DNA from: an uncultured Opitutaceae bacterium
Lineage (GTDB): Bacteria > Verrucomicrobiota > Verrucomicrobiia > Opitutales > Opitutaceae
Reading direction: 5' to 3'
Length of the DNA: 64,000 nt
Assembly: GCA_903929355.1 (NCBI GenBank)
Contig: CAIYUN010000072.1
Coordinates: 1 to 64,000 of the forward strand
Position 1 is the stretch's first letter. The number at the start of each line of letters is the position of its first letter. Below the pieces are notes generated by a model. It had not been told where the DNA came from and searched no databases. It saw only the letters and a program-made list of their open reading frames with translations. A program made the position numbers and the translations under genes. Shown here one piece after another: positions 8,346 to 33,000 of the stretch.

Positions 8346-8472
8346 CGAAGGCGCAAGCAGCACTCCGCTGACCCGCCGCTGTCGGCTTGCATCTTCTGCC
8401 TGAGTGGGGCCATCCTTGCCCGACTGGTTACCCGTTCCTGCGGCTTGCCCGCCCATTGCTTTTCAATTCCCC

Positions 8473-10584
8473 ATGAAAACACCCCGTCCCCTCCCCGCGC
8501 ACCGCCTTATGGCGCTGGCTTTGTTCGCCGCCGCCTTCGCCACTCTGCCGCTCCACGCCGCCGGCCCCGCGCCGTTGGTCGCCAAACCCGCCGTCAATGC
8601 CCCCGTGACCGTCACCGACAACGGCGCGACCTGGACGATGGACAACGGCATCGTCAAGGCGACCGTCCTGAAGAACAACGGCAACATGCAGTCCGTCATC
8701 TATCACGGGATTGGCATTCCCAACGCCCGCAGCGAATACTGGGAGACGGTGCCCACGGGTCAGATGACCGCGTCGCTGACGATTGACCCGGCGAAGAACG
8801 GCGGCGAACGCGGTGAGGTCGCGGTCAAAGGCGTGAACGGCCGCATGGACATTGAAGTCCGCTACACGCTGGAACGGGGCGTCAGCGGGTTTTACACCTA
8901 CGCCGAATACACCCACCAGGCCTCCTACCCCACCGCCGGTTTTGGCGAAAACCGCTTCATCCTCCAGATGAATCCCACCTTCAACTGGCTCTCGGTGGAC
9001 CAGGACCGCAACCAGCTCATGATTGCCGGCCAGGACCAGCGCTCCGGCACCGTCATCCACGCCAAGGAGCAAAGCATCCTCGCCGCCGGCAATTACCAGA
9101 ATTCCGTCGAGCACAAATACACCTACTGCGGCATCATGTACCGGCTTCCGGCCTACGGCTGGTCGAGCACCAAGGACCATATCGGCGTCTACTTCATCAA
9201 TCCCACCACCGAATACATCGGCGGCGGGGCGGAAAAGATGGATCTCGTCTGCCACATGGGCGCAACCCTGCTGGACTACTGGACCTCCGGCCACTATGCG
9301 GGCGGCGCCGGCTGCAACATCCCCCAGGGCCAGGATTGGAAGAAAGTCGTCGGGCCGATCTTCGTTTACTTCAACGCCCTGGAGAACCCCAAGGATCCCT
9401 CCCCGGCCGAGCTCGCCACGCTCGCCGCCACCCAGGGTAACCCCACCGTGCCGCCGACGTGGCACGACAATGCCTTCGCCCTGTGGAATGATGCCCTGGC
9501 CAAGTCAACGGAGGTTCGGGCGGCTTGGCCGTTTGCCTGGGTCAATGGCGTGGACTATCCGCACCGGGAGCAGCGGGGCAATGTCTCCGGCCAGGTCGTC
9601 CTGAACGACCCGCAGGCCGCCACCGGCAAACTGCCCAATCTCACCATCGGCCTGGCTCACCCCGACTACACCGGCACCGGCGGTGCCTTCGCCTCCCGCT
9701 CCGGCAACGGCAACCTCGTCACCTGGCAGCACGATGGCAACTACTACGAGTTCTGGAACCAGGGCGGCGAGGACGGCCGCTTCAAGATCACCAACGTCCG
9801 CCCTGGCAAATATACGCTCCACGCCTTTGCCGACGGCGTGCTGGGTGAATACGCCAGGACCGACATCACGGTCGCGGCCGGCCAGGACCTTGACTTGGGC
9901 AAGCTCGAATGGAAACCCGTCCGCCACGGCCGGCAGATTTGGGAAATCGGCTACACCAACCGCAACGGCGGTGAGTTTTACAAGGGTGACGAATACTGGC
10001 GCTGGGGCTGGAACATGCGCTACGCCCTTCTCTTCCCCAACGACATCACCTACACGGTCGGCCAGAGCGACTGGCACAAGGACTGGTTCTTCGAGGAAGT
10101 CCCGCATGCGACCAACCTCGGTTTCGTCAATCCCGCGGCCAAGGATCCTGCCCGCCAGCCTTTCGGTTGGGTCAACCTCCCCACCACCCAGGGTCAGGAT
10201 ATGTGGCCGGTCTGGGGTCGCGGCCGGGCCACCACCTGGACCATCAAATTCAACCTGGACCACGCCCCCAAAGGCGGCACTGCCACTCTCCGCGTCGCCT
10301 TGGGCGGTGCCGACGGCACCACCCTGTCCATTGGCGTCAATGGACAGAATGCGGGTGCAATCCGGCCCGTGTCCACCAATGCCCTGCGCTACAACACCGA
10401 CCGCGGCGTCTGGAAGGAATACGCCCAACCTTTCAACGCCTCGCTCCTCCAGGCCGGCGACAACGCGATGACGCTCACGGTGCCCGCCGGCGACCTCACG
10501 ACCGGGGTGTGTTACGATTATCTGCGCCTCGAGCTCGACGAGAATGCCCCGCCCGCCGGCGCGCCCGTCGCGCTGGCCGAGTAG
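8473..10584 (+). CDS. Rhamnogalacturonan lyase, PL4-type (copy 1)
   Basis: The chosen ATG gives a 703-aa protein with a Sec signal peptide (MKTPRPLPAHRLMALALFAAAFATLPLHAAG). The architecture is that of polysaccharide lyase family 4. It has an N-terminal beta-sandwich of the galactose-mutarotase type (about 40-330), a small fibronectin-like domain around 420-510 ([22 protein letters not shown]), and a C-terminal carbohydrate-binding-like domain ([31 protein letters not shown] ... [21 protein letters not shown]). Such enzymes cleave the rhamnose-galacturonate backbone of pectin rhamnogalacturonan I by beta-elimination, here probably in the periplasm or outside the cell. A paralogue follows 209 bp downstream on the same strand, which points to local duplication and plant-polysaccharide use. 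Confidence 0.88.
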   Translation: MKTPRPLPAHRLMALALFAAAFATLPLHAAGPAPLVAKPAVNAPVTVTDNGATWTMDNGIVKATVLKNNGNMQSVIYHGIGIPNARSEYWETVPTGQMTASLTIDPAKNGGERGEVAVKGVNGRMDIEVRYTLERGVSGFYTYAEYTHQASYPTAGFGENRFILQMNPTFNWLSVDQDRNQLMIAGQDQRSGTVIHAKEQSILAAGNYQNSVEHKYTYCGIMYRLPAYGWSSTKDHIGVYFINPTTEYIGGGAEKMDLVCHMGATLLDYWTSGHYAGGAGCNIPQGQDWKKVVGPIFVYFNALENPKDPSPAELATLAATQGNPTVPPTWHDNAFALWNDALAKSTEVRAAWPFAWVNGVDYPHREQRGNVSGQVVLNDPQAATGKLPNLTIGLAHPDYTGTGGAFASRSGNGNLVTWQHDGNYYEFWNQGGEDGRFKITNVRPGKYTLHAFADGVLGEYARTDITVAAGQDLDLGKLEWKPVRHGRQIWEIGYTNRNGGEFYKGDEYWRWGWNMRYALLFPNDITYTVGQSDWHKDWFFEEVPHATNLGFVNPAAKDPARQPFGWVNLPTTQGQDMWPVWGRGRATTWTIKFNLDHAPKGGTATLRVALGGADGTTLSIGVNGQNAGAIRPVSTNALRYNTDRGVWKEYAQPFNASLLQAGDNAMTLTVPAGDLTTGVCYDYLRLELDENAPPAGAPVALAE

Positions 10585-10793
10585 GTGGCGGACTGGCTGC
10601 GCCCATGAGGGCGCGACCGCCCCTGGTCGCATCTTATTTACGGGCCCGACCGCCCGGGCGCGTCGTCGGGAACCTGCCTTAAAAGGGGCGGTGCCGACCG
10701 GCATCGGGTCTTGCAACCTTTCCCGGAGGGGTTTGCCTTCAGCCTTGTCCGGCTCGTGCCCCACCCCTGCCCTTGGTTTCGTCCTTTTTTCCC

Positions 10794-13115
10794 ATGCATC
10801 CTCCCCGCTCCCTGCTCCTGCGGCAACTCGTCTTGCTCGCCTTGGTTTCGACCGCCGTGCTCGCACTCCGCGCCGCCGACGGTCCACCGGTCATCGCCCA
10901 ACCCGCGGGGGCCGCGCCGGTCACCGTCACCGAAGCCAATAACTTCTTCACCCTCGCCAACGGCATTGTCTCCGCCCGCATCAACAAGCGCACCGGCGAC
11001 CTCGAAGGAGTGACCTACAAAGGCGTGGACCGGGCGGGCCACGACCAGGGCGCCGTCGGCCCGTGGGAGCAGAACCCCTCGGCCGCCGCCCAAGTGGGGG
11101 GTCTCACCCAGACCATCACGATTGATCCCGCCAAGAACGGCGGCGAGCGCGCCGAGGTATCCGTCAAGGGCGTCACGGGCGGAAAGGTGGCCTTTGGCGC
11201 CTCGCCCGGTTCGACCGGCGGCACGTCGAACATGGACCTCGAGATCCGCTACGCGATGGGCCGCGGCGACAGCGGCGTCTACACCTACGCGATCTTCTCC
11301 CACCCCGCCGCCTACGGCCCGCTCAATCTCGGCGAGAGCCGTTTCATCCTGCGCGTCAACCAGTCCTTTGACTGGATCTCGGTGGACGCCGACCGGAACC
11401 TGCTCGCCGCCGGTCCGCGCAATTGGGGCACCGGCGTCGTCGTCCACGCCAAGGAGCAGCGCATCATGAGCCAGGGCCCCTACCAGAATTCCGTCGAGCA
11501 CAAGTACAGCTACAACGCCGTCCAGTATAAAATCCCCGCCTACGGCTGGTCCAGCACCACCGAGCATGTCGGTGTCTGGTTCATCAACCCGACCATCGAA
11601 TACCTCAGCGGTGGCGCGACGAAGCAGGAGCTCGTCACTCATTACGGTGACAATGACGACCCCGACCCCATTCTCCTCGATTACTGGCGGGGCACGCACT
11701 ACGGCGGCGGCGCCACGGTCAACGTGGCCGCCGGCGAGGCCTGGAGCAAGGTCGTCGGCCCGATTTTCGTCTACGTGAACTCGCTCGACAGTTTTCGGAC
11801 GCCCTCGGCGGCCGATCTCGCCACGTTCGCCGCCACCGCCGGCAACCCCACGATTCCCCCCGCCTGGACGGAGAACCAAACCGCGCTCTGGCAGGACGCG
11901 CTCGCGCAGGCGCGGAAGGAAACCTCCAAGTGGCCCTACGACTGGGTCAACGGGGTGGACTACCCGCACAAAAATGACCGTGCCCAAGTGACGGGTCAAA
12001 TCGTCCTCAACGACCCGCTCGCGCCCGTGCCTCTGAAGAAATTCACCAGCATCACCATCGGCCTCGCTTTCCCGGACGCCATCGGCGGCGGCGGGCGCGG
12101 CGCGGGTGCCCGCGGTGGCGGACGCGGCGCGGGCGCGGCGCCCGCTCCGGCTCCCGCCGCGGTGGCAGGTGCGGCCCCGGCCCGGGGCGGAGCCGCGCGG
12201 GGCGGACGCGGTGGCGGTGGCGGCGACTGGGTGCACGACGCCAAGCACTACCAGTTCTGGAACGACGGCGACGCCGACGGCAGGTTCACCCTCACCAACG
12301 TCCGCCCCGGCTCCTATACGCTGCACGCCTTTGCCGATGGCGTGCTGGGCGAGTTTGCCCAGGCCAACATCACGGTCGCGGCCGGCCAGAACCTGGATCT
12401 GGGCAAGATCGAATGGAAGCCCGTCCGCTATGGCAAACAGCTGTGGGATATCGGCTATCCCGACCGCACCGGCGGCAAGTTCTTCAAGGGTGACGGGGCC
12501 AACTACTGGCTCTGGGGCTGGAACCTGCGCTACGCGCTGTTGTATCCGAATGACCTCACCTACACAATCGGGCAGAGCGACTACCACAAGGATTGGTTTT
12601 TTGAGGAGGTGCCGCACGCGACAGCCGATCCCAAACTCTGGCTGAATCCCGCCGCCAAGGATCCCGCCAACCAGAAATTTGGCTGGGTCAAGGCCGAGTC
12701 CCGCGTCCAATACCCTGCCGTTGACGGCGCCGGCCCCTGGGCCATCTACGGCCGTGGCCGGGCGACGACCTGGACCATCAAGTTCAAGCTGGACCAGGCG
12801 CTGCAGGGCACTGCGGTGCTGCGCCTCGCGCTGGCCGGCGCCGATGGCGGCGGACTGACGGTGGGCGCCAACGGCCAGGCCATCGGTGCCATCCGGCCCA
12901 CGGCCACCAACGCCATCCGCTACAACACCGACAAAGGGGTCTGGCAGGAGCAGGACGTGCGGTTTGACGCCGCGGTGCTGAAAGCCGGCGACAATTCCAT
13001 CACACTCACCGTGCCGGCCGGCGACCTCCAAAGCGGTGTCGTGTGGGACTACCTGCGGCTGGAACTGGACGAAAGCCATCCCGCCGGCACCCCGCCCGTC
13101 GCCCTGTCCGAGTAG
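10794..13115 (+). CDS. Rhamnogalacturonan lyase, PL4-type (copy 2)
   Basis: The 773-aa protein starts [20 protein letters not shown] and has a Sec signal peptide ending near LRAADG. It matches copy 1 along its whole length, including [18 protein letters not shown], [10 protein letters not shown], YGWSST and [15 protein letters not shown] segments, so the two are paralogues. It carries two insertions. One of about 15 residues lies near residue 140. The other is a Gly/Ala/Arg/Pro-rich stretch of about 50 residues near residues 425-475 ([18 protein letters not shown]), just before the fibronectin-like domain, where copy 1 has a short ordinary loop. The insert may be a flexible linker. Family-based function: beta-elimination in the rhamnogalacturonan I backbone; the exact specificity of each copy cannot be read from sequence. 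Confidence 0.88.
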
Positions 13116-14994: not shown

Positions 14995-15027
14995 CCGCGG
15001 CCCCCACCGTCGCGTCAGTGGCCCCGG

Positions 15028-15054
15028 GGTGGAACCGGTTGACCCAACCGGTGG
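15028..15054. repeat. Short copy of the ggttgacc palindromic repeat
   Basis: The sequence ggtggaaccggttgaccc followed by aaccggtgg is a shortened, hairpin-forming relative of the larger inverted repeats at 25802-25878 and 40147-40204. It lies between the convergent ends of pgi and the histidine kinase gene, so it could also act as a bidirectional terminator stem. Confidence 0.5.
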
Positions 15055-15130
15055 AATTCGTCGCCCACCAAGCCTGGCAGGCCTTTCTGATGTCGGGCGA
15101 TGGCCGACCCCAGTCCTTCCAACCCGGCTA

Positions 15131-17812
15131 TCACGCCACGCGCGCCTCCGCCCCGGTTTCGTTTGCCGCCCGAGGGAGGCTGAATTCAAAATGGGCCCCT
15201 CCTTCTGGCCGGTTCCACATGGTGATGGTGCCGCCATGGGCGGTCACGATGCCCCGGCAGATCGCCAGACCCAGCCCGGTGCTGCTTTCCCCCCCCGTGG
15301 GGCGGACCGAAGTCCGGCCGTATTCGGTGAACAGTTTCCTCTGTTCGCCTTCCGGCACCCCGGGGCCCCCGTCGTCCACCCAGATCATGATGAATTGGCC
15401 TTCGCGGCGCGCCCCCACGGTGATCGCGGTGTCGGGCGGCGAGAATTTGATGGCGTTCATCACCAGGTTCTCCAGCACCCGCTTCAACCGGATCTCGTCG
15501 CCGTCCAACTCCAGGCCGGAGGCCGGTTCCTCCAGCCGCAGCCGCAGGTTTTTCTTCGCCGCGATCGGCGCGAAAACCTGGTTGGCCCAGCGCAGCACCA
15601 GGGCGAGATCCAGCCGCTTGCGCTCAAGTTTCATGGTGTCGGCATCCAACGTCGTCACGTCCAGCAGGTCGTTGACGAGCGCGAGCATGGCCTCGACGCT
15701 GCCCGTCAGGTAATTCAGGGTCTCCACCTGTTTTTCGTTCACGGGGCCCAGCGTGCCGTCCCGAAGAAACTCCGCCAGCCCGCGCACCGCCGCCAGCGGG
15801 CTGCGCAGGTCGTGGGAGGTCACCGCGAGAATCCGATCCTTGGCGACATTGGCCCGGTGAATGTTCCAGTAGGCGGTCTCCAATTCCTCGGTCGCGTGTT
15901 TGCGCTGCGTGATGTCGCGCCCGATGGTGGAAAGGAACTCAATCTTTCCCTCCGGGGATTTGTGGGCCAGGATGACCTGGGAAATGGGGATCTCCAGCCC
16001 GCGCCGGCTGGACAAAATTGTTTCGCCGCTCCAGATCCCCTCGCGGACGGCGGTGGGAATCCCCTCGGTCACGACGAGGTTCTTGGCCGGGGTGGGGAGG
16101 AAATCGCTGATGGCCGACTTGGTGACATCCTCGTTCAGCCCAATCCCGAGCAGCTTGCGGCCGGCGCGGTTGATATACTGGAGCTGACCGCCTGGATCGC
16201 TGATTCCCACCAAGTCGGTCGTGGACTCAATGATGGCAATCAGGCGGTCGCGGGTACCCTCCGCCTTTTTGCGCAGGGTGGTGTCGGTGCGGATGGCCAC
16301 GAACTGGCGGGGCTTGCCCTGCGCGTCGAGAAACGGCACGATGGTGGTGTCCGCCCAGAAAAACGTCCCGTCCTTGGCCTTGTTTTTGATCTCACCCCGC
16401 CAGACTTTGCCCTCCAGGATGGTGGACCAAAGGCCGGTCATGAACGCCTTCGAGTGATGGCTGGAATTCAAGATGCGGTGGTTCTGACCCAGCAGCTCCT
16501 CGCGGGTGTACTTGGAGGCGGCGCAGAACTTGTCGTTGGCGGCAATGATGTTCCCCTGGGGGTCGGCGATGGTCACCAGCGAGTGCTCATCCAACGCGGC
16601 CTTCAAATCCACGATTTCCCGGAGGGAGTGCCGGAGCTGCAGCTCGGCCCCCTTGCTCTCGGTGACATCCGTGGAGGTCCCGAGCAGGCGGAGCACCTTG
16701 CCGGTGGCATCGGGCACCCGGAAGCCGCGGCTGGCCACCCAGCGCACGACCCCGTCGGGGCGCGCGATCCGAAACTCCACGTTCACCCTGGGCTCGCCCG
16801 CGATGAGCCGCGCAAAGGTGGCCTCCACCCGCGCCCGGTCCTCCGGCAGGATCGCCTCGGCCCAGGCCCGGGGCTGCGCATAGACTGTTGCCGCCGAACG
16901 ACCCCAGATCTCCTCAAAGGCCGGGCTGACATAGTAGGTCCGCTGCATGTCCGGCGAGGTCATCCAAAACACATCCGTGATGATCTCGGTGAATTGGCGG
17001 AACTTCTCCTCGCTTTCGCGCAAGGCTGCTTCCGCCTGTTTGCGCGCGGTGAGGTCGCGGAACGTCCAGATTCGCCCATAGTATTTTCCGTCCTTGCCAT
17101 ACACGGGGGCCGAATACCGGTCCAGCACGGTCCCATTCTTCAGCTCAAGCTCATCGCGGGAGATTTCATCCGGATGGGCGGACAGATAGGCTATCTTCTC
17201 GGTATACTGGTCGGGGGTTTTGACCGCGTTGGTGACCCAGGCCACCCGTTTCGTGTCATCTTCATCACTGGCTATCTCCGGGGGAAATCCCAGCAGGTCG
17301 GTCAGCCGCTGGTTTTGCAGGATTTTCCTACCCGCTTCGCTCACCACCAGGATGCCATCCAGCAGCGAGTTGGCTTGGGCCTCGAAAAACGCGTTCTTCC
17401 ACATCAACTCCTCGTCCGATCGTTTGCGCTCGGTGATGTCGCGCACCACTTTTGAGACGCCGACAATCCGACCAGTGGAATCCTTGATGGGTGAGGCCGT
17501 GATTGAAACTTCCACCAAGTGTCCATCCTGGTGCAGGCGCACCGTTTCAAAGGATTTGACCCTTTCCCCGCGTTGGATTCGTGCCAGAATCTCCCGCTCG
17601 TCCTCCTGGTGCTCGGTGGGGATCAACCGCATGATTGAGGTCCCCATCATCTCCCCGGCCGTGAAGCCAAACATATTTTCCGCCCCTTGGTTCCAACTCG
17701 TGATCAGGCCCGCGAGGTCCTTGCCGATGATGGCATCGTCGGAAGAATCCACGATGGCCGCCAGCCGGAAGCGGGCCTGTTCGCCGGTCAATGCCGGGGT
17801 GGGAGCGTCCAT
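15131..17812 (-). CDS. Multi-PAS sensor histidine kinase
   Basis: The likely start MDAPTPALTGEQARFRLAAI gives 893 aa; the track ORF runs 90 codons further into the IS element. Five PAS-type sensor units can be followed, at about residues 15-135, 140-255, 265-390, 400-515 and 525-645, most ending in a PAC-like DITERK/DLTARK/DVTESK motif. The kinase core has the H-box VTSHDLRSPLAAV (His about residue 667), N-box NLVMNAIKFSPP, G1 DDGGPGVPEG and G2 [11 protein letters not shown]. No transmembrane segment is evident, so it is probably cytosolic and could sense redox or small ligands. In the sequence before the IS insertion it would start 23 nt after the PilB/GspE-like gene, downstream of a lone response regulator that is a plausible partner. 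Confidence 0.9.
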   Translation of the reverse strand: MDAPTPALTGEQARFRLAAIVDSSDDAIIGKDLAGLITSWNQGAENMFGFTAGEMMGTSIMRLIPTEHQEDEREILARIQRGERVKSFETVRLHQDGHLVEVSITASPIKDSTGRIVGVSKVVRDITERKRSDEELMWKNAFFEAQANSLLDGILVVSEAGRKILQNQRLTDLLGFPPEIASDEDDTKRVAWVTNAVKTPDQYTEKIAYLSAHPDEISRDELELKNGTVLDRYSAPVYGKDGKYYGRIWTFRDLTARKQAEAALRESEEKFRQFTEIITDVFWMTSPDMQRTYYVSPAFEEIWGRSAATVYAQPRAWAEAILPEDRARVEATFARLIAGEPRVNVEFRIARPDGVVRWVASRGFRVPDATGKVLRLLGTSTDVTESKGAELQLRHSLREIVDLKAALDEHSLVTIADPQGNIIAANDKFCAASKYTREELLGQNHRILNSSHHSKAFMTGLWSTILEGKVWRGEIKNKAKDGTFFWADTTIVPFLDAQGKPRQFVAIRTDTTLRKKAEGTRDRLIAIIESTTDLVGISDPGGQLQYINRAGRKLLGIGLNEDVTKSAISDFLPTPAKNLVVTEGIPTAVREGIWSGETILSSRRGLEIPISQVILAHKSPEGKIEFLSTIGRDITQRKHATEELETAYWNIHRANVAKDRILAVTSHDLRSPLAAVRGLAEFLRDGTLGPVNEKQVETLNYLTGSVEAMLALVNDLLDVTTLDADTMKLERKRLDLALVLRWANQVFAPIAAKKNLRLRLEEPASGLELDGDEIRLKRVLENLVMNAIKFSPPDTAITVGARREGQFIMIWVDDGGPGVPEGEQRKLFTEYGRTSVRPTGGESSTGLGLAICRGIVTAHGGTITMWNRPEGGAHFEFSLPRAANETGAEARVA

Positions 17813-17839
17813 GGGATGAAGTTTCCGCCCGGGACCTAG

Positions 17840-17859
17840 CAGCCTGTCGGACTTGCCGC
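17840..17859. repeat. IS1182-type left terminal inverted repeat
   Basis: The 20-nt end CAGCCTGTCGGACTTGCCGC matches the inverted right end with one single-base indel. The preceding four bases are CTAG. Confidence 0.85.
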
Positions 17860-18000
17860 TGAAGTTGCAAACAGGGTTTTCCCGGAATCTCCCGCCTGGG
17901 CGGATTCCAACTCGAGTTGACGGTGGAAAGCTGTTTTGGGGGACGCTGGTCCGCTCGGCATCGGTCGCCGGGGGTTGAAACCCATGTTCCGCGCGGCGTT

Positions 18001-19398
18001 TTACCGCGCGGCGGCCAGTTTCGGCCCGGCACCGAGCGTGTGCAGGCGGCGGAGGTTGTAGGCCAGGCACACCAAGGTCCATTCCGTGGCGACCTTGATG
18101 GGACCGCGGAGCCGGAACTGCCGGAAGCCCATGGCCGCTTTGATGATGCCGAACACCGGCTCGACCGTCTGCTGCCGCAGTTTGTAGAGCGATTTGCCGA
18201 CGGTGGTTTTGAGGCGGTGCCGCATCACTTCGCTGGTGCTCGCGCCGGCGGCGGGCGCGGGAGGCTCGGGTTGCCTTTCCAGATCGGCCACGCTGCGGTG
18301 GTGGCTGGTTTTATCCAGCGGCGCATACACGGTGGTGCCCGTCGGCGTGCCGCCGGCGGTTTGTTCCACCTGCTGCACGGCGGCGGCGCTGTAGAAACCA
18401 TTGTCGGCGAGCACGGTGGCCACGGGGCCGGCCGCCGGTGCGATCGCAGCCACGGTTGGCCCCAGCTCCTGTTTGTCGTTGGGGGCCTGGCTCACGCGCT
18501 CGCCGACAATCAGACGGCTCTCTACCTCCACGGCGGCCTGCGCGTTGTAGCACTGGCCGAAGCCCCCGGCGGTTTTCATGATCCGGCTGTCCGGGTCGGT
18601 AAAGTTGTACTGGTCTTTGGGCTTGGGCGCGGGGCTGGGCGGCGTCGGACCCTTGCCGCGCACGGTCTCGCCCCGCGCCTGCCGGGCCTGCCGCGCGGCC
18701 ATTTTCTCCTCGTGCGCGGCCAGTTCCACCGCATACCGCGCGTGCGCGCGGGCCTCGATCTCGGCCCGCGCCTGGGCCAGCGCGGCCCGGCGCTCCTGAC
18801 GGCGCACGATCTCGGCGGGAATCGTCAGGCCGTCCTGCAGCGGGGTGGCGTCGGCCTGCTCGGCTTTGGCGACAAGCTGCTGCACTTCCACTTCGAGTTC
18901 GGTCAGCCGCTGGCCCATGCGGTCATAGCTCATGGCCGAGTGCTTGCTCGCGTTGGCCGCAATTTTGGTCCCGTCAACACTGACCGTGATCTGGCCGAAC
19001 TGGGCCAGCTTCAGGGCCTGGGCCAGTTGCAGCACCTCGACGAAGCTGGCCTGGAGCAGCGCCTGGTGCTCGCGCCGAAAGGTGCAGATCGTGTCATGGT
19101 CGGGATGGGTGTCGGCGGTGAGCAACCGCACCGCGACGTTGTCGTAGGTGGACTGCTCGATCCGCCGCGACCCAAAGGTGCCGGTCGCGTAGCTGTAGAC
19201 CAGCAACCCGAGCAACAGACCTGGCGGATACTGGGCACTGCCGGTGCCACGGTGATTGACCTTGGCCTGGCTCAGGTCGAGCGTCGCGACCGCATCCAGG
19301 ATGAAATGGGCGAGGTGGTCGGCGGGCACCCAATCGCGCAGATCGGGCGGAAGCAACAACGGGGTGTCACGGTCGATGGTTACGAAGTTTATGGCCAC
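18001..19398 (-). CDS. IS1182-family transposase
   Basis: The 465-aa protein begins MAINFVTIDRDTPLLLPPDLRDWVP and shows IS1182-type features: PPGLLLGLLVYSYATGTFGSRRIE near residue 60, DHDTICTFRR near 100, then ITVSVDGTKIAANASK, which carries the first catalytic Asp of the DDE set. The middle is a long Ala/Arg/Glu-rich coiled-coil-like region (about 180-250). It is followed by DPDSRIMKTAGGFGQCYNAQAAV and VLADNGFYSAAAV (second Asp), and a C-terminal RQQTVEPVFGIIKAAMGFRQFRLRG with the last acidic residue. It fills most of the IS and is on the same strand as the genes on either side, so read-through into the kinase gene is possible. Confidence 0.94.
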   Translation of the reverse strand: MAINFVTIDRDTPLLLPPDLRDWVPADHLAHFILDAVATLDLSQAKVNHRGTGSAQYPPGLLLGLLVYSYATGTFGSRRIEQSTYDNVAVRLLTADTHPDHDTICTFRREHQALLQASFVEVLQLAQALKLAQFGQITVSVDGTKIAANASKHSAMSYDRMGQRLTELEVEVQQLVAKAEQADATPLQDGLTIPAEIVRRQERRAALAQARAEIEARAHARYAVELAAHEEKMAARQARQARGETVRGKGPTPPSPAPKPKDQYNFTDPDSRIMKTAGGFGQCYNAQAAVEVESRLIVGERVSQAPNDKQELGPTVAAIAPAAGPVATVLADNGFYSAAAVQQVEQTAGGTPTGTTVYAPLDKTSHHRSVADLERQPEPPAPAAGASTSEVMRHRLKTTVGKSLYKLRQQTVEPVFGIIKAAMGFRQFRLRGPIKVATEWTLVCLAYNLRRLHTLGAGPKLAAAR

Positions 19399-19459
19399 AA
19401 ACTTGTTACAGCACTTATCATGCCAAGTCTGCGCCGCCGCGAAAGGTCAGGAAATCCTC

Positions 19460-19480
19460 GCGGCTAAGTCCGACAGGCTG
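19460..19480. repeat. IS1182-type right terminal inverted repeat
   Basis: The 21-nt end gcggctaagtccgacaggctg is the inverted partner of the left end, with one extra base. It is followed directly by CTAG, which matches the CTAG left of the element. Confidence 0.85.
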
Positions 19481-21178
19481 CTAGACGGTCCATTCGAACG
19501 GCGCGTTGGCCTCGAGTTCCTCGATGGTGGTCAGGCCCAGGAGGACCTTTTTCAGGCCATCGTAGCGCAGGGGCTGGTAACCGGCGCGCTTGGCGCTTGC
19601 AGTCAGCAGGTCAAGGTCGCCACCGCGCCCGATGATGCCGCGCATTTCCTCGGTGACAATGGCGAGCTCGTGAAAGGCGATACGGCCCTTGTAGCCTTTG
19701 TGGCGGCAGGCGTCGCAGCCTTTGCCGGTGTAAAACAGGGGCGTCTCGCCCTCGGCGTCGTCGAAATAACGTGCGACCATCTCCGGGGAGGGCACGTAAC
19801 TTTCCTTGCACCGCTCGCAAATGCGCGCGGCCAGGCGCTGGCCCAGCACGGCCAGGACGGAGGGAGCCACGGTGTGGGCCTCGACGCCGATCTCCATCAG
19901 GCGCGCGATCGCCTGGATGGCATTGTTGGTGTGCAACGTGGCAAAGACGAGGTGGCCGGTGAGGGCCGCCTCGCAGGCAATCCGCGCCGTCTCCAAATCC
20001 CGGATCTCGCCCACCAGGATGATGTCCGGGTCCTGGCGCAGGAGCGCCCGCAGGAGCATGCCGAATTTCAGGTCAATATGGTCGTCGGTCTGCGACTGCG
20101 TCAATCCCGGCAGCTCGATCTCAACGGGATCCTCGATGGTGGACACGTTCAGATCCCCGATGTTGGCCTGCGCGAGCGCGGCGTAGAGCGTGGTCGTCTT
20201 CCCCGATCCGGTGGGACCGGTGACAAAGACAATGCCGTTGGGCGCCTTGATCACGCGCTGCAGCGGCTTCAATATCGCCTGTGAGATCAGCATCCGATCC
20301 AAGGATAGAACGCCTTGCTTGCTCACCCCACCGAGGATGCGGATGACGCATTTTTCCCCCTTGATGGTCGGGATGAAGCTCACCCGGAAATCAACCTTGT
20401 TAAAGCCCAGCTTGAAGGTACAGCGTCCGTCCTGCGGATACCGGGTCTCGGAGATGTTGAGGTCGCACATGATCTTGACGCGGCTGATCAACGCCCGATG
20501 CAACACCTTGGGGAGAAGCAGCAGCTCCTCCAAGATTCCATCAATGCGCAACCGCACGCGCGTTTCGCCGGTCTGCGGCTCGATGTGGATGTCGCTCGCC
20601 CGCTCCCCGAGCGCGAGGCAGATCAGCGAATCGGCGAGCCGGATCAGCGACTTCGATTCGCAGAGCCGCTCCAGCTCCACTGGCGCGTGCTGCAGGGCGA
20701 TGACTTCGCCGGTGGCTTCCATCTCCTTGATGATGGCCGCGATGTCCTTGTCCGTGGAATAGCGGAGCTCGATCGCGCCGCGGATTTCGGTGGGGAGCGA
20801 GAACATCGGGCTGACCTTCAGACCCGTGATGCCCTCCAGACGCCGGACCATGGCCTTGTCCAACGGATCCGCCATGGCCAGGGTGATGACCCCGTCAATG
20901 ACATAGAGCGGCAGGACCTGGGCCTTGCGCACAATCTCCGCCGGAACCAGCGCGGTCGCCTCCGGACTGGCGATGGTGTTGACCGGGTCAATGTAAGCGA
21001 TGCCGAGTCGTTCGCTCCATAACCGGCAGGCGTCGGCATGCGGCACCAAGCCGGCCGTGATCACCGCCTCCACCAGCGCAAGATCATCGGCCCCATGGGC
21101 GTTCACCAAGCCTATCAGCTCGTTTTCCGCCAAATAGGGGTGCGCTTGACGGAGCAAATCGGCGTAGGTGGCGGGCAT
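19481..21178 (-). CDS. GspE/PilB-type secretion or pilus assembly ATPase
   Basis: I start at MPATYADLLRQAHPYLAENE (565 aa); the track start is a TTG 15 codons upstream that overlaps the stop of the 66-aa ORF. Residues 1-150 are an MshEN/GspE N-terminal domain. The ATPase domain shows Walker A GPTGSGKTTT (321-330), the Asp-box region STIEDPVEIELPGLTQSQ, Walker B DIILVGEIRD (386-394) and a His box TGHLVFATLHTNNA. A tetracysteine zinc site (C453, C456, C487, C490) is present as in PilB and GspE. The protein should power assembly of a pilus or type II pseudopilus at the inner membrane. No PilC/GspF or secretin gene is adjacent; the pseudopilins lie about 15 kb away. The TAG stop lies in the duplicated target site of the IS1182 element. 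Confidence 0.92.
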   Translation of the reverse strand: MPATYADLLRQAHPYLAENELIGLVNAHGADDLALVEAVITAGLVPHADACRLWSERLGIAYIDPVNTIASPEATALVPAEIVRKAQVLPLYVIDGVITLAMADPLDKAMVRRLEGITGLKVSPMFSLPTEIRGAIELRYSTDKDIAAIIKEMEATGEVIALQHAPVELERLCESKSLIRLADSLICLALGERASDIHIEPQTGETRVRLRIDGILEELLLLPKVLHRALISRVKIMCDLNISETRYPQDGRCTFKLGFNKVDFRVSFIPTIKGEKCVIRILGGVSKQGVLSLDRMLISQAILKPLQRVIKAPNGIVFVTGPTGSGKTTTLYAALAQANIGDLNVSTIEDPVEIELPGLTQSQTDDHIDLKFGMLLRALLRQDPDIILVGEIRDLETARIACEAALTGHLVFATLHTNNAIQAIARLMEIGVEAHTVAPSVLAVLGQRLAARICERCKESYVPSPEMVARYFDDAEGETPLFYTGKGCDACRHKGYKGRIAFHELAIVTEEMRGIIGRGGDLDLLTASAKRAGYQPLRYDGLKKVLLGLTTIEELEANAPFEWTV

Positions 21179-21219
21179 GGCAAAAGGGAATCGGAGGACA
21201 AGGTGTCGTCGCCCGACGC

Positions 21220-21420
21220 TCAACTTCGAGCGGCCCGGGCCAGCCTGCGGTGGCTCGCAAAGATTGACCCGATTTCCGCCTGATCCAGCAACTCCGCCCC
21301 GAGCGCGGACCGCTGGCGGTCAATCTCCGCCTCCCGGAGCAGTTGCTTGAGCGGGTAGCGCACCTCGCTCACCCGCGGTGGCGTGGGCGCTGCGCCGGGA
21401 GTTGAAGGGGGATTCGACAT
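21220..21420 (-). CDS. Small hypothetical protein between regulator and ATPase
   Basis: This 66-aa ORF sits between the response regulator and the ATPase on the same strand, 40 nt after the regulator stop. It ends 41 nt before the ATPase ATG, and its TGA overlaps an alternative TTG start of the ATPase. The product has a Pro-rich N-terminus and a charged, probably helical C-terminal half (YPLKQLLREAEIDRQRSALGAELLDQAEIG). No family is recognised. Tight placement and absence of any better ORF on this strand favour a real gene, but it is short. Confidence 0.5.
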   Translation of the reverse strand: MSNPPSTPGAAPTPPRVSEVRYPLKQLLREAEIDRQRSALGAELLDQAEIGSIFASHRRLARAARS

Positions 21421-21460
21421 CGAGGTTGGGTGGCGCGGTGGGATCGTCCGTGACGGAAAG

Positions 21461-21859
21461 TCAGGCGGGGTGGACGAGGTTTAGGCCGGCCCAAGTGTCG
21501 TGCAAAGTCTTCACCAGATCGGGGCGGGGCATGTCCTTGCGGATAAAATTGAGCGCCCCCGCGGCGGCGCATTTTTCGACAATTTCGCGCGAAGCGACAG
21601 CCGTCAGCATCACCACCTTCGCCAAGGGATCAAAGGCCAGCAATTTACCCAGAACGGACACGCCGTCCTCGCCGAGGAGATTGATGTCAAGCAGCACCAG
21701 ATCGGGCGCAAACTGCTGGTACATGAGCAGGGCGGCGGCCCCGTCCGCCGCCTCACGGATTTCGACCGCGCCAAGGCCGGTCACCACCAGCCGCAGGTAG
21801 ACCCGGATGTGGGGCTCGTCATCGACAATCAGGATTTTATGGGCAAAGGTGTCATTCAT
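21461..21859 (-). CDS. Single-domain response regulator (CheY-like)
   Basis: The start MNDTFAHKILIVDDEPHIRVYL gives 132 aa, a receiver domain alone. Visible are the acidic pair IVDDE, the phospho-acceptor in APDLVLLDINLLGEDG, the conserved Thr in VVMLTA and the Lys in NFIRKDMP. There is no output domain, so it must act through protein contacts, for example on the ATPase two genes downstream or as a phosphate relay. It heads the minus-strand run regulator, 66-aa ORF, PilB/GspE-like ATPase, [IS], multi-PAS kinase. Pairing with that kinase is inferred from position only. Confidence 0.9.
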   Translation of the reverse strand: MNDTFAHKILIVDDEPHIRVYLRLVVTGLGAVEIREAADGAAALLMYQQFAPDLVLLDINLLGEDGVSVLGKLLAFDPLAKVVMLTAVASREIVEKCAAAGALNFIRKDMPRPDLVKTLHDTWAGLNLVHPA

Positions 21860-22038
21860 GAGGTATGGACGGGTGGGAGCGGCGGAATCCATGAATCCAC
21901 GCCGTGAACAACCCTTCGTGTCCCATTATATGGGCCCACCGCCGCCATGGGGATGGGGTGTTACCCTGCCAAACCGGCGGACCTTCGTTGGGAAAACGGC
22001 CTGTTTCATCGGCCGGAGGGCGCATCTCAGCAGCGGTG

Positions 22039-22164
22039 TTAACTGGCGAGGGTAAAGTTTGGAGGGGCAATGAGCCGATTGAGGACACGGATCATTTTGC
22101 GCATGATGGCGATGATGCAGACCTTGGAGGGTTTGCTTTTCTCATTCCGCCGGATTGGACCAAC
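22039..22164 (-). pseudogene. C-terminal remnant of an IS110-family transposase
   Basis: A short reading frame, too small for the track, ends KSKPSKVCIIAIMRKMIRVL followed by NRLIAPPNFTLAS and a TAA stop. This resembles the conserved C-terminus of IS110/IS1111 transposases (KVALxAVMRKLLxxLNxLL). Nothing of the rest of the transposase is present; upstream lies the intact RNase gene. The 180 bp on the other side, up to the response regulator start, holds no gene I can support, apart from some possible IS-end sequence. Confidence 0.6.
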
Positions 22165-22182
22165 CCACTGGCTGATCCGCAT

Positions 22183-23664
22183 TCAAAGTCTCTCGAGGCC
22201 GATGAAATCAATGTAGCCGCGCTCGACATCGGTGCTGACCAGTTTCACGCGCAGCCGGTCGCCGACCTGCAGATCGGTCGGGCCGCTGTCCAGTTTGCCT
22301 TCGATCGGCGGTTCGGCCAGCCGCACAAAAATGCCCCGGTCGGTCGCGCCCGTCACCGTGGCGTCAAACTCCCGGCCAATGCTGCCCCGCAACAACAGGG
22401 CGGCGGCGGATTTGTCCACCTGCCGCTCGACCTTCTTGGCGGCGTCCTCCTGTTCGGTGCAGTGGCGTGCAAGCCAGGCCAGTTCGTCGTTGGCGTAGGG
22501 CGGGCGCTGTCCGGCCAGCGCGGCCTGCAGCAGGCGCTGGGTAATCACGTCGGGATAACGCCGGTTGGGCGCGGTGGAATGAGAGTAGTCCCGCACTGCG
22601 AGGCCGAAATGCCCGGCGACCGACGCCCCTGGCACCTCGAGCACATATTCGCCCGCCCCCAGCAGCTTGATCACACAAAGCGACAGCTCGGCGAAACCAG
22701 CCGGCGTCTTCGCCTTGGCCGAAAGTAAAAACCTTTCGAGCGCCCTGGGATCGGGATCCTTGGGCAATGCCGTCCCTCTCTCGTCCGCGAGCTCGACGAT
22801 CCGGTCCCAGTGTCTCGGCACCCGCACCACGCGCCGGATCGAAGGGAAATTCCGGGTGGCGAGAAACCTGGCCGTGACCCCGTTGGCCGCGACCATCAGA
22901 TCCTCGATCAGCCGCTTGGCGGTATTGGATGTGTCCACCGCCAGGCCCGTGAGGACGTCGTGGTCGAACACAGGACGGGTTTTCAGGGTTTCCAGCGAGA
23001 GCGCGCCGTGCTGATGGCGAATGTCCGCCAGTTGGTCGGCCACCCGATGCTGCAACTTGATGTTTTCAGCCAGGCCGGCAACCGCGTCCACCGCCGCCGG
23101 CACCGTTCCGGTGCCCTCGAGCCAGGCCGCCACACTGTTGTAGGCCAGCTTGGCGCGGTTGCGGACCGTCGCCCGGTAGATGTCGGAGGCGGTCAGGGAG
23201 CCATCGGCGCTGAAAACCATCTCGATCACCATCGCGAGTCGGTCCGCGTCGAAGTTGAGAGAGGTGAGGTTGGTAGAAAGCTTTTCCGGCAACATCGGAA
23301 AAATCCTTGCGGCGGTGTAGACCGAGGTCGTGTTGGCCCGGGCGTGGCGATCCAGCGCCGACCCCTGGGCAACCACCGTGGCGACATCGGCGATGGCGAC
23401 GAGGATCTTTGTCGCGCCCTTCGGCAAGGCCTCGGCCACGGAAAGCTGGTCGAGATCGAGCGAATCATCGTTGTCGATCGAGCACCACAACCGAGAACGC
23501 AAATCCCGGGTCGAAGCCTCGGCCCCCACGGCCGGGGCGCGGATCGCGTCGAGCTCTTTCATGGCGGCCGGATCAAACTCGGGCACCAGCCCTCGGGCGA
23601 GCATCGCGCGGGCGGCGAGGTTTTGGAGCAAGGCACGCGACGGGTTGGCGACAGGGGTGGTCAT
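22183..23664 (-). CDS. RNase II/RNase R-family exoribonuclease
   Basis: The 493-aa protein is built around an RNB domain. It has the metal-binding catalytic motif SIDNDDSLDLDQLS (near residue 65), VAIADVATVV, and later SHSTAPNRRYPDVITQRLL, typical of the RNase II/R core. The N-terminal cold-shock domains of E. coli RNase II/R are missing, since the catalytic motif lies only about 60 residues from the start. The last ~70 residues (IGREFDATVTGATDRGIFVRL) look like an S1-type RNA-binding domain. It should degrade single-stranded RNA 3' to 5'. This short domain order resembles a compact RNB subfamily seen in other phyla. It is a single gene, with a transposase remnant just downstream. Confidence 0.9.
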   Translation of the reverse strand: MTTPVANPSRALLQNLAARAMLARGLVPEFDPAAMKELDAIRAPAVGAEASTRDLRSRLWCSIDNDDSLDLDQLSVAEALPKGATKILVAIADVATVVAQGSALDRHARANTTSVYTAARIFPMLPEKLSTNLTSLNFDADRLAMVIEMVFSADGSLTASDIYRATVRNRAKLAYNSVAAWLEGTGTVPAAVDAVAGLAENIKLQHRVADQLADIRHQHGALSLETLKTRPVFDHDVLTGLAVDTSNTAKRLIEDLMVAANGVTARFLATRNFPSIRRVVRVPRHWDRIVELADERGTALPKDPDPRALERFLLSAKAKTPAGFAELSLCVIKLLGAGEYVLEVPGASVAGHFGLAVRDYSHSTAPNRRYPDVITQRLLQAALAGQRPPYANDELAWLARHCTEQEDAAKKVERQVDKSAAALLLRGSIGREFDATVTGATDRGIFVRLAEPPIEGKLDSGPTDLQVGDRLRVKLVSTDVERGYIDFIGLERL

Positions 23665-23799
23665 GGGGCCAAGCGGAACAGCTCAAAAACCACCCGTCAG
23701 CATGAAAACCATCGCTGGCTTAGGAAGAATCGTGCTGTCCGGGGTTGTCGAACCGGGCAGAGACTTGACTTTCTCCACCCCCACCGTTCGCTTGGGGCC

Positions 23800-23994
23800 A
23801 TGCTTTCCCGTCGCCACCTCCTGCCCGTCCTCGCCGCACTGGTGCTCGGCTCGTTATTGCCTGGTTGCGCCTCCGATGTCACCACCGAGAACAACACCAT
23901 CCCGTGGACCCGCCCGGCCTCATGGCAGGGAGGCATCCCCGGCATGGGTAGCGCCTTTGGCGGCAACAGCGGCGGCGGCAACGCCCTGCACTGA
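23800..23994 (+). CDS. Small predicted lipoprotein
   Basis: The 64-aa product starts MLSRRHLLPVLAALVLGSLLPGCASD, a lipoprotein signal with the lipobox-like LLPGC and Asp at +2 or +3. The mature part is only about 40 residues (TIPWTRPASWQGGIPG, then a Gly/Asn-rich end). It lies divergent from the RNase gene and 56 bp before rsmI. The start was placed by counting back from the stop in the track translation, which embeds it in a longer antisense ORF. No family is recognised; the signal and plausible start support a real gene. Confidence 0.65.
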   Translation: MLSRRHLLPVLAALVLGSLLPGCASDVTTENNTIPWTRPASWQGGIPGMGSAFGGNSGGGNALH

Positions 23995-27098: not shown

Positions 27099-30000
27099 TC
27101 AAGGTGCGGCTTCGCGCAACGCCAACGAGTGCTTCGTCCCTGCTGCGACCGCCACCACCCCCGCCAAGTCGGTCGGGACGTTGGTCTGACCGGCACCATT
27201 TTCACCCCATGCCACCACCGTACCATCCGCACTTACCGCGAGTGAATGTCCCGCTCCCGCCGCGATGCCGACTACGCTGATCAGTCCATCCGGCACCGCC
27301 GAAGGAGCCCCACCAATGCTCCAGGCCACGACTGTTCCATCCGCTCTCAACGCCAATGCATGACCCGCGCCGGCTGCAATCGCGACAACCTGACGCAAAC
27401 CCTCCGGACCAGCAGGTGAGGCCGGACGGCCGACGCCCCACTCCGCCACCGTGCCGTCCGACCGCAGGGCAAGCGAATGCATCCCTTTTGCCGCGATCGC
27501 CACCACGTCGCCCAAGGACAAGGGCAAGTTGGGACCTTGGGGCCCCCGGGCATAGTTTTCAGCCACCGATATATTCTCAACGATGCCATCTGTCCGGAGA
27601 AGAAGCGAATACCCGCTGGCTCCCTGGTACATCGTGCCTCCCGCGATCGCCAGTCCGCGGGACAGCTCTTGCAATCCTTTGATGGTGCGCACTCCACTGG
27701 AGCTTTGGACCGTTATCATCTGCGGCGGGTTTGATGGACCATGAGTTCCTCCCCAAGAAACAATAGTCCCGTCAGCCTTTAAAGCCAAAGAATGATAGCC
27801 ACCCGCAGCGATTGCCACCACGTCGTTCAAACCCGGCGGCACGATCGTTTGCCCGGCATCATTGCCACCCCAGGCCACCACCGTTCCGTCGGCCTTCAGG
27901 GCGAGGGAATGACGGTCGCCAGCCGCCACGGCCACCACTCCGGTCAAACCAGCCGGTAGGTTTGTCTGACCGTTGGTGTTGCCGCCCCAAGCAATTACCT
28001 CCGGTTTCGCCAGAGCGACGATTACAAATCCGCCCGCGCTGGCGGTCAGCCCGTTGCCATCCCTCACCTCGATCGAATAGTAGCCACCGTCCTGGAACTT
28101 GATCCCACCACGGGTCAGACTCGCCGTGGTGGCCCCATTGATATCGAACCCGTTCCTCTTCCATTGATACCGCAATGGAGCCTGACCGGTTGCCCGAACT
28201 CCAAGGCTGAGTGAGGCTCCCCTGTTGAGCACCGTCCGGGAAGGAAGTCCGACGATGATTCTCGGCGGCGGAATCACGGTCAAGGCGGCACTGGCGGTTG
28301 CGCGACCAGCGCCGTTGCTTACCACAACGGTGTAAGTGCCGCCATCAGCCGGCTGAACATTGCTCAGCAATAAATTGGCGGCCTGAGCGCCCTCAGCGGT
28401 CATACCCTCCGGAGGCGCCGGTTGCGATCCTCGAAACGGGCTCTGCTCAACGTTGTGAAGGGGATTCCCGTCCTTCAACCACTGGAAGACGAGGTTGTCC
28501 CCCTGGCCAGTCTGCACACTCAAGGCAACTTTCTGCTGTGGCATCACGGACTGGCTCTTTGGAGGCGTGGCAATGACGGGAAAAGTGTCCTGCGAGCCAT
28601 CACGCAACGCATAGGGTCCCGCCACGGCTAACACCGTCTTTGGGAGACTCAAAATCCCGCCGCTATATCCGGTCATGACGGTTCCATCTTCTGCTCTGAA
28701 GCCCCCTGGAATCCTTTCGACCACGTCATGCAGGCCGGCCGCAGTCTTGGCGGCATCGCCGCCCCACGCCACGACCTTGCCGTCTGCCCTGAGCGCCAGA
28801 GACCCAAAGTCTGTCGCCACGGCGACCACGTCATGCAGGCCAGTTGGAACAATCTCCTGGCCGTTGCCACCCGGGCCAAACGCGACGACACTCCCGTCCG
28901 CCCGCAAAGCTAGCGCGTTGCCGGAGTCGGCCGAGATGCCGATCACATCGTTGAAGTCAGTCACAGGGGTCTTAAAGTAGGAGGTGCCCTGTCCCCATGC
29001 GACCAGCGTGCCGTTGGCTTTCAATGCCAGCGCAAAGCTCCATTCCACCGCCACTGCCACAACATCACTCAAACCCGGCGGCACCTCAAGGACGTTGGGC
29101 AGGTTCCCACCCCAGGCCGTTACGGTTCCATCCGCTTTCAACGCGAACGAAGTTTCTGGGCCCGTGGCGATGGCGACGACGTCGCCCAAGGCGGCCGGCA
29201 CGTCGGACTGACTTCGATCATTGCCGCCCCATGCCGCCACCGTGCCGTCGGATTTCAGGGCTAGTATGCGCCAGCCGCCCGTAGCCGGGGAGGCGTTTGC
29301 CGACAGTGCCACCACGTTCCGTAGGTCGGTGGGCATCGGAGAACGATTGAATGCGCCGGGATTGAGATCCACCACTTGGTTGTGCGAAGCATCCAGGCCG
29401 GAAAACGACTGCAGCCGCACAAAGGCCACAGCACGGGTGACGATGCCCCTAGTGTCGGTCGCTTCCACCACATAGCTGCCGATGTCCTGAACGGCGGTTG
29501 CAGCCACCCCATAATTATCGGCCGTCGCGCCGGGAATGCGTCGGCCGTTTCGCTTCCACTGATACGTGAAGGGCGGATCTCCACTTGCCTTTGCTTGCAG
29601 AGAAAATGGCTCGCCAAGGCTCACCACCGGCCGGGAGGGCACACTCTCGATGGCGGTCGGCGCCCTGATCGTCAAAGTTGCCCTCTCGCTCATGACTGAA
29701 CCTAGGGAGTTCTGGACGACGACCCCATACTCCCCTGCCGCCGTCGCCGGGGGATTCGGCAAGGTCAACACCGACCCCGTAGCCCCGGGAATCGCCACCC
29801 GGTCCTTCTGCCATTGGTATTGCAGCGCCCCGCCGGACGCCGTCACCGCCATCGTAACCGCATGCCCTGCGGCCATGGCTTGGCTGACAGGTTGAACGGA
29901 AATGAGCGGCGGGGTGTCCTGCGAGCTATCGCGTAAAATCACCACCCGGTCTTTCCGCAGCACAACGTCCATCACATTGGTCAGGTCGGCTGGAGTCGCA

Positions 30001-33000
30001 AACTTTACACCAGCTTGGCCCCAGTCGTCGCTCCAAATCTTGAAGGTTCCGTCTGCTATCATCGCCAGCGATTGCCGATCGTTGGTGGCGACGGCCACCA
30101 CATTGTCCAGGTCGGACACGACTGCGGCCGATACGTTGAAGGAAAAACCGATGCGGAGCACCTTCCCGTCGCCCCTGAGCGCCAATGCGTGCTGATTCTC
30201 CACCACGAGGGAGGCCACATTCGCCACGTTGTCCGGTAGCTTCATCGGTCTAAGTCCGTCCCTCAAAGCCGTCACCGTCCCGTCCGCCTTCAAGGCCAGA
30301 GTGTATCGGCCCGATTGCTCAACCGCAATGACACCGCGCAAATGGGGGAGAACGGGAATATCCTCGTTCGGCAGTCTTTCCCATTCTGCCGCTCCGTCCG
30401 ATTTCAGGAGTATGACATGGCCGCCGCCACCGACCGCCGCCACCACATCGGAGGCCAGGGCGGATTCATTGCGCGGCCCATTGCGCGGGCTAAGCTCGGT
30501 CTCCCCCCACGTTAGCGCCGATCCGTCTTGGTTGAGCGCGCGCATCCAACCATCCCCGCCAGTCAATTCGGTGACCTTTTCCAGTTTGGTGAGCGGGCTA
30601 TTCGGATCAAATTCCCGACCTGTCCAGACGAGCACCTGCGTCTTTGGCGGTATAACGCGGACAAGACTGAGGTGCAGCGACGACAGGCCCTTCGCGTCGG
30701 TAATCTCCACCGAATAGATGCCCGTGTCCTTGACGGTGGCCGCCGGCACACTGTAGCTGTCTGTTGTCGCTCCGGAGAGCAGCCGGCCGTTGAGCTTCCA
30801 GCGGTAGTTCAGCGGCGACTGGCCCTCGGCCGTCACCTGCAAGCGGAGCGGTTGTCCGGCCGGCAATGATTGACGGGCGGGCGGCGCGGTAATGATCGCC
30901 GGCCGAGGACGCACGGTGAGCTGGAACGGCGCGCTGGTCGCCGAGCCACCGCCGTTGGTGGCGATCACAGTAAAGCTTCCGGAGTCGGCAGTTTGAGCGC
31001 CAGGGATCGTAAACACAGCATCGGTGGCCTGCTTGATCGCAACCCCATCTTTCTGCCATTGATAGGTGGCAAACCCCGGGTGTTCAGGAGCCGTTAACGT
31101 AACCGAATCCCACTCCAGGACCTCGATATCCTTCGTCTTGCCAACAAAGTTTGGCGGAAAGTCCTCCGAGCCATCGCGCAGAGCCAGCGCGTGGGATTCG
31201 CCCGCAGCCACAGCCACGACATGGTCAAGTTTCCCGGGCAAATAAGCCTTCGGTGGATTTGTGACACCCGGTCCACTCGCCATACTAACCCCTGGCTGCC
31301 AAGCCGCCAGGGATCCGTCCGACATACGCGCGAACGCTTGGTGTTGGCTGGTGGTCAGCCCCACCACACCGGTGATACCCTGTGGCATTGCCTGCGACAT
31401 TCCTTGTTGGTCAAGCGCCACCACCGTCCCATCAGCTTCCACCGCCATGGTTCCATTCGCCGTAATGGCTACGGCAACGTTTTGTCCGCCGGAATGGACC
31501 TTTGGCTCATTGACGCCCCAATTCACCACGGTGCCATCGGATTTCAGTGCCGCCAAACCGTAATGACCCGCCACCACGGCAATCGCCCCCTTCGCACTTT
31601 CGGGAGCAGCGCCTGCATAACCCCAGGACACCACCGAACCGTCAGATTTCAAGGCCACCCCGCTAAACCCTCCCGCCGCAATCGCCACCACGTCCCGCAA
31701 TCCAGCTGGAAATGCCAACTGGCCAAAACTGTTGTCGCCCCAACCCACGACGGTTCCGTCCGCGTTCAAAGCCAGCGAAAACCACTGGCCGGCCGCCACC
31801 GCCACGGCATCGGTGAGATTTGCCGGCACGTTTGACTCGCCCCCTTCATTGTTGCCCCAAGCCACGACCGTCCCGTCGACTTTCAGGGCCAATGAACGCT
31901 GATCGTCCGCCGCCAGCGCGACCACATTGTTTTCCAAGCCCTCCGGCAAGGTGGTTTCGCCGTGCCCATTCGTGCCCCAAGCGATCACGCGGGAGTTTGG
32001 ATAGGCGACATTTACGAAGCCCACGAATGTCCTCACAGTCACGCCGTTGGCGTCAGTCACCTCGGCGGTGTAGTAGCCAGCACTCTGCCAATTCGCCGCC
32101 CCATCGTGGTAGTCCGGCAAGGTCGCCCCAATCAGTTTCACCCCGTTTCGCATCCATTGGTAGCGCAAGGGGGCCTCGCCCGTGGCCTGGACATGGAGAT
32201 CGAACTTCCCACCCTTGTTGACGACGGTGCGCCGCGAAGGGGTCACGTTGAGCACGGGCGGCGCGGGCACAGTCAACACGGCCACCTCGCTCGTCACGCT
32301 CCCCGCCCCATTCGTGACCACCACCGTATAATTGCCTGCATCCCCTGGTTGTACCCGGGCCGCCGTCATGGTGTTCTTACTGGGCTTCGCCAGCGGCACG
32401 CCGTCCTTCTGCCACTGGTAGCTCACAAACCCGCCCGTGACGTCGACCCCAAAGCTCGCGTCTTGGTTCGCCAGCACCGTCCGGCTGGCCGGCTGCGTTG
32501 TGATGGTTGGCAGCACATCCAGGGCGCCATCGCGCAACGCCACCACATGGTTTTCACCGGCAGCGACCAGCAACACATGATCCAGCCCCGGCGGGATCGC
32601 CGTCTGACCGGTCTTGGCATTGCCCCAGGCCACTAACATGCCGTCGGCTTTCACCGCGAACGAGTAATCTTCCGCTGCCGCGATGGCGGTGGCTTTGCCG
32701 AGGTTCGCCGGCACGCTCGCCTGGGCGACACCATCGCCGCCCCACGCCACCACTTGGCCATTAGCCGTCAATGCCATCGAGTGCCGGGCTCCTGCTGCGA
32801 GCGACACGACTGCATCCAACCCGGGCGGAACTTTTCGGGGACCGGTAATGGCCGCATCATCCTGAATCAGTCCATCCGCCCGAAGGGCAAAGGAGTGCCT
32901 CGGACCGCCGGTCGCAATCAACGCCGATCGCACGCCGTCCAGCCGGCGTGAGGACTCATAATGAAAGGTGACGCGAGTGTCAAAAGAGCGCCACCATCCG

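Follow-up and report, generated by a model that had tools for sequence, protein, structure and literature searches.

An IS1182-family element at the stop codon of a PilB-like ATPase gene in a probably permuted signalling cluster of an uncultured Opitutaceae bacterium

The window analysed here is a stretch of 64,000 nucleotides (64 kb) from the genome of an uncultured Opitutaceae bacterium, and the locus of interest lies on its minus strand (Table 1). A stand-alone response regulator gene and a conserved small ORF are situated upstream of the gene for a PilB/GspE/MshE-like ATPase, which is followed by an IS1182-family element and a histidine kinase gene. The kinase has a PAS-HisKA-HATPase architecture, in which five PAS domains provide the input instead of a REC domain. 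Its reading frame also extends open into the element, over positions 17813-18082, to an ATG at 18082 that would give a product of 983 aa. Elsewhere in the window, two adjacent genes (8404-10584 and 10773-13115) encode products ~53% identical to each other and probably arose when a polysaccharide-lyase-like gene (function assigned by eye) was duplicated in tandem, and a 2588-aa ORF at 27099-34865 appears by eye to contain RCC1-type and Ig-like repeats.

Table 1. Coordinates of the features at the locus, numbered along the window.
Feature	Position	Strand	Remarks
Lineage-specific insert between pgi and the lipoprotein-rsmI-ppx block	15000..23800	.	approximate bounds
Five-PAS histidine kinase	15131..17812	-	893 aa; catalytic core of relatives' cluster type
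CTAG target duplication, kinase side	17836..17839	.	duplication shown on sibling elements
IS1182-family element	17840..19480	-	1,641 bp, intact; single copy in genome
Terminal inverted repeat, kinase end	17840..17854	+	CAGCCTGTCGGACTT
IS1182 transposase	18001..19398	-	465 aa; putative DDE residues present
Terminal inverted repeat, ATPase end	19466..19480	-	CAGCCTGTCGGACTT
CTAG target duplication, ATPase side	19481..19484	.	ATPase last base + TAG stop
PilB/GspE/MshE-like ATPase (MshEN + T2SSE)	19481..21178	-	natural C-terminus intact
Conserved small ORF of cluster	21220..21420	-	66 aa
Stand-alone response regulator	21461..21859	-	receiver domain only
RNase II-type RNB exonuclease gene	22183-23664		inside pgi-rsmI lineage-specific block

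Both termini of the element read CAGCCTGTCGGACTT in inverted orientation and match at 15 of 15 positions. The transposase scores 322 bits against the IS1182 profile NF033551, above the cut-off of 270 bits, and its residues D142, D332 and E413, invariant among the nine transposases compared, are consistent with a DDE triad, a putative assignment made from the alignment. Plasmid-borne copies and those of related genomes have the same ends, and unrelated elements carry identical ends; together with the perfect terminal repeats and the intact transposase, this means that the element is not a product of chance. When viral contigs were scanned for the terminal repeat, CTAG preceded 10 of the 80 matches having four upstream bases, and the other matches look like chance 15-mers. 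The element thus resembles the ISAzo1-like and other IS1182-family members with these ends in the profile of its transposase, the acidic residues of catalysis, the terminal repeats and the duplication of CTAG, and differs from them in its transposase, which is only ~46-58% identical to the closest full-length copies found. A second copy is absent from the one genome to which the window belongs (n = 1). The insertion is real, correctly bounded and ordinary, a jumping gene of a common kind; the first-pass annotation had placed it at 17836-19484, a range that takes in the element proper (17840-19480) and both flanking CTAG copies.

Some members of the IS1182 family aim at palindromic sequences, and one member of the family, IS1272, replaces an inverted-repeat target without duplicating it (PMC5678879). 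The target at the window locus, CTAG, is likewise a palindrome, but the subgroup to which this element belongs instead duplicates it exactly. The tetramers proposed earlier to bound the element are present on both sides, and they also stand at both ends of sibling elements in L163, L164, L165 and L167 and around copies on plasmids whose terminal repeat is identical or almost so (rechecked in L327, L328, L330 and L331). When the flanks of two plasmid-borne siblings were joined with one CTAG and queried against sister Pseudomonas plasmids, the joined sequences matched at 100% over 324 bp in the best 8 records of each; at 99% identity or above, the two queries had 78 and 105 matching records. These single-CTAG empty sites show that the subgroup duplicates CTAG exactly and without loss, so that the duplication claimed for the window element is upheld through two sibling insertions rather than through the window site itself. 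Our literature search found no account of CTAG targeting by IS1182. Because CTAG bounds every complete sibling checked, the flanks alone are no proof of one simple insertion in the window.

CTAG is scarce in the 64 kb, with six occurrences observed against ~39 expected from trinucleotides; the four that do not flank the element lie within 0.8 kb of one another, inside the 27099-34865 ORF. At eight sibling sites no ORF of at least 100 aa terminates, and we therefore reject the idea that this IS1182 group habitually lands at stop codons. The position at the ATPase stop most plausibly reflects chance among the few CTAG sites available, and is tolerated because the duplication restores the TAG.

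The ATPase stop codon is the minus-strand CTA at 19481-19483, and the protein terminus (...FEWxx, then stop) coincides with that of its relatives, for which reason truncation of the ATPase by the element is rejected. The stop had been said to survive within the duplicated target, as it does, and the flanks, once joined with a single CTAG, read GTC TAG GTCCCGGGCGGAAACTTCATCCC ATG, which reproduces the 23-nt gap that had been predicted between the ATPase stop and the kinase ATG. No second copy of the ATPase was found in the same genome.

Gene order was compared across 80 loci with a related ATPase (L023-L042, L103-L162). The usual order is a REC-kinase of ~380 aa, a regulator, the small ORF and the ATPase, often then an Hpt ORF; the REC domain was found in a relative's cluster kinase. 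A kinase match lies upstream of the ATPase in 72 of the 80 loci, with the regulator in between for most, and two of the eight exceptions (L041, L158) are interrupted by contig ends. The congeners G004 and G005 are among the loci with the kinase upstream. The window keeps the relatives' succession of regulator, small ORF and ATPase, and shares with them the type of its kinase core; it differs in having the kinase downstream of the ATPase, five PAS domains for REC, another chromosomal site, and no Hpt beside the ATPase, where the transposase and the kinase come next on that strand, before pgi. The kinase core is about 44% identical to cluster-type kinases (~40-48%), as against ~29-37% to most other kinases, and in a core tree it falls near the base of the cluster-kinase clade, with moderate support and on a long branch. 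No other cluster-type, native kinase was found in its own genome.

In none of the relatives examined does an orthologous kinase follow the ATPase directly. The nearest parallel is G155 (L128, 4864-8037), in which a 1057-aa multidomain kinase begins 94 nt past a lone regulator-ATPase pair; a kinase after the ATPase has thus arisen at least once elsewhere, with a different multidomain kinase, the core of which is not of cluster type. The order before insertion was therefore probably unusual, the kinase standing on the opposite side of the operon in nearly all relatives. A search of 252 genomes of the family, 388 of the phylum and the named genome collection yielded no close relative with this cluster; no genome with the cluster but lacking the element turned up, and no collection searched contained an empty site of the window locus. 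A literature search for a paper on the cluster of REC-kinase, regulator, small ORF and PilB-like ATPase found none. In three loci (L038 7409-9271, L311 6811-8664 and L312 6624-8495) the ATPase seems, by eye, to carry the small ORF as an N-terminal fusion, suggesting joint action of the two proteins.

On the chromosome, pgi and rsmI lie 9.06 kb apart in the window compared with ~0.4-1.5 kb in G005, G007, G008 and G011, and because the two genes are near neighbours in relatives, the kinase, element, ATPase, small ORF, regulator and RNB exonuclease gene form a lineage-specific block. Whereas pgi is 80-84% identical to its congeneric counterparts, the ATPase reaches only 53%, and its tree places it outside the congeners' and family clade on a long branch; long branches weaken the tree placement of both ATPase and kinase. 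The closest ATPases (59-60%) belong to another family of the same order (G371, G288 and G339), where regulator and ATPase occur without an adjacent kinase in the cluster. On these sequence grounds the cluster is likely foreign to the genus, with horizontal transfer suggested rather than proven. Taken together, the kinase position, the outlying ATPase and the pgi-rsmI spacing suggest that the element struck a cluster that was already rearranged and lineage-specific. Upstream of the regulator, a short piece at 22029-22115 recurs with 79% identity at six further genomic positions, several of which lie at contig ends; it is probably an old mobile-element remnant, and its identification as a piece of IS110 is not established.

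We consider it probable that the IS1182 element transposed a single time into a permuted cluster that had formed beforehand, using the CTAG that overlaps the stop of the ATPase. An intact element would have transposed once into the CTAG spanning the stop codon, and duplication of the tetramer would have left the reading frames of ATPase and kinase both complete. Before that event, regulator, small ORF, ATPase, a 23-nt gap and the five-PAS kinase would have followed one another on one strand, as an atypical form of the family-wide phosphorelay-ATPase operon in which the kinase had moved downstream and PAS domains had replaced the REC input; this form probably came to lie between pgi and rsmI through horizontal gain or through rearrangement. 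Because the element has the same orientation as the kinase, co-transcription of the kinase would likely be lowered or altered, and transcription of the transposase may read through into it, given that a search of the element yielded no minus-strand terminator-like site. More tentatively, the arrangement may represent a phosphorelay re-wired to serve a pilus-type ATPase, in which a horizontally acquired regulator-ATPase pair and a multi-PAS kinase with a cluster-type core, in permuted order, replaced the native REC-kinase operon, and whose halves the element now parts.

The main rival to one simple insertion, which we regard as unlikely, is that recombination between two IS1182 copies (a deletion, or a duplication followed by loss) created the junction and so brought ATPase and kinase together for the first time. 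Recombination followed by loss of one copy would yield identical CTAG flanks, which are uninformative when every complete sibling is bounded in this way, and the upstream kinase of relatives fits genes that were once apart. Against this, the genome holds a single copy, so that no partner for recombination exists today and a lost one must be supposed; the process would also require two independent CTAG sites, the first at the stop of the ATPase and the second 23 nt ahead of the kinase start codon, with only four more in 64 kb. Slightly less likely still is the proposal that regulator, ATPase and kinase stand in the original operon order, merely split by the element, as the shared strand and rebuilt gap would allow and as the kinase that follows the regulator-ATPase pair in G155 might seem to parallel. 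That kinase, however, has a core of another type, the nearest ATPases have no kinase in their cluster, and the order runs counter to that of most loci, the congeners included. The first-pass annotation's single operon of regulator, ATPase and kinase thus stands insofar as the same types of gene are clustered family-wide, and fails as the family's usual order, given the upstream kinase and the Hpt ORF that often follows the ATPase. Non-adjacency of ATPase and kinase in relatives, which that annotation had named as contrary evidence, does occur in a general sense, but the cluster of those relatives is of another version, and their arrangement thus does not decide the order before insertion here.

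The least probable of the readings, and to our minds a doubtful one, is that the element now drives the kinase, from an internal promoter or by read-through, and that the arrangement has been maintained for that reason. Transposase and kinase are co-directional and 188 nt apart, the kinase frame is open into the element, and the element showed no terminator-like site on the minus strand; no minus-strand promoter match was found there either, and one insertion carries no sign of selection.

The locus offers a clean case in which a CTAG rule lets an insertion sequence land precisely at a gene boundary without damage to the genes. Of greater interest is the permuted cluster: across the lineages of the conserved cluster the kinase has been lost, replaced or moved, and the comparison could be used to test how a pilus-type ATPase and two-component signalling are coupled.
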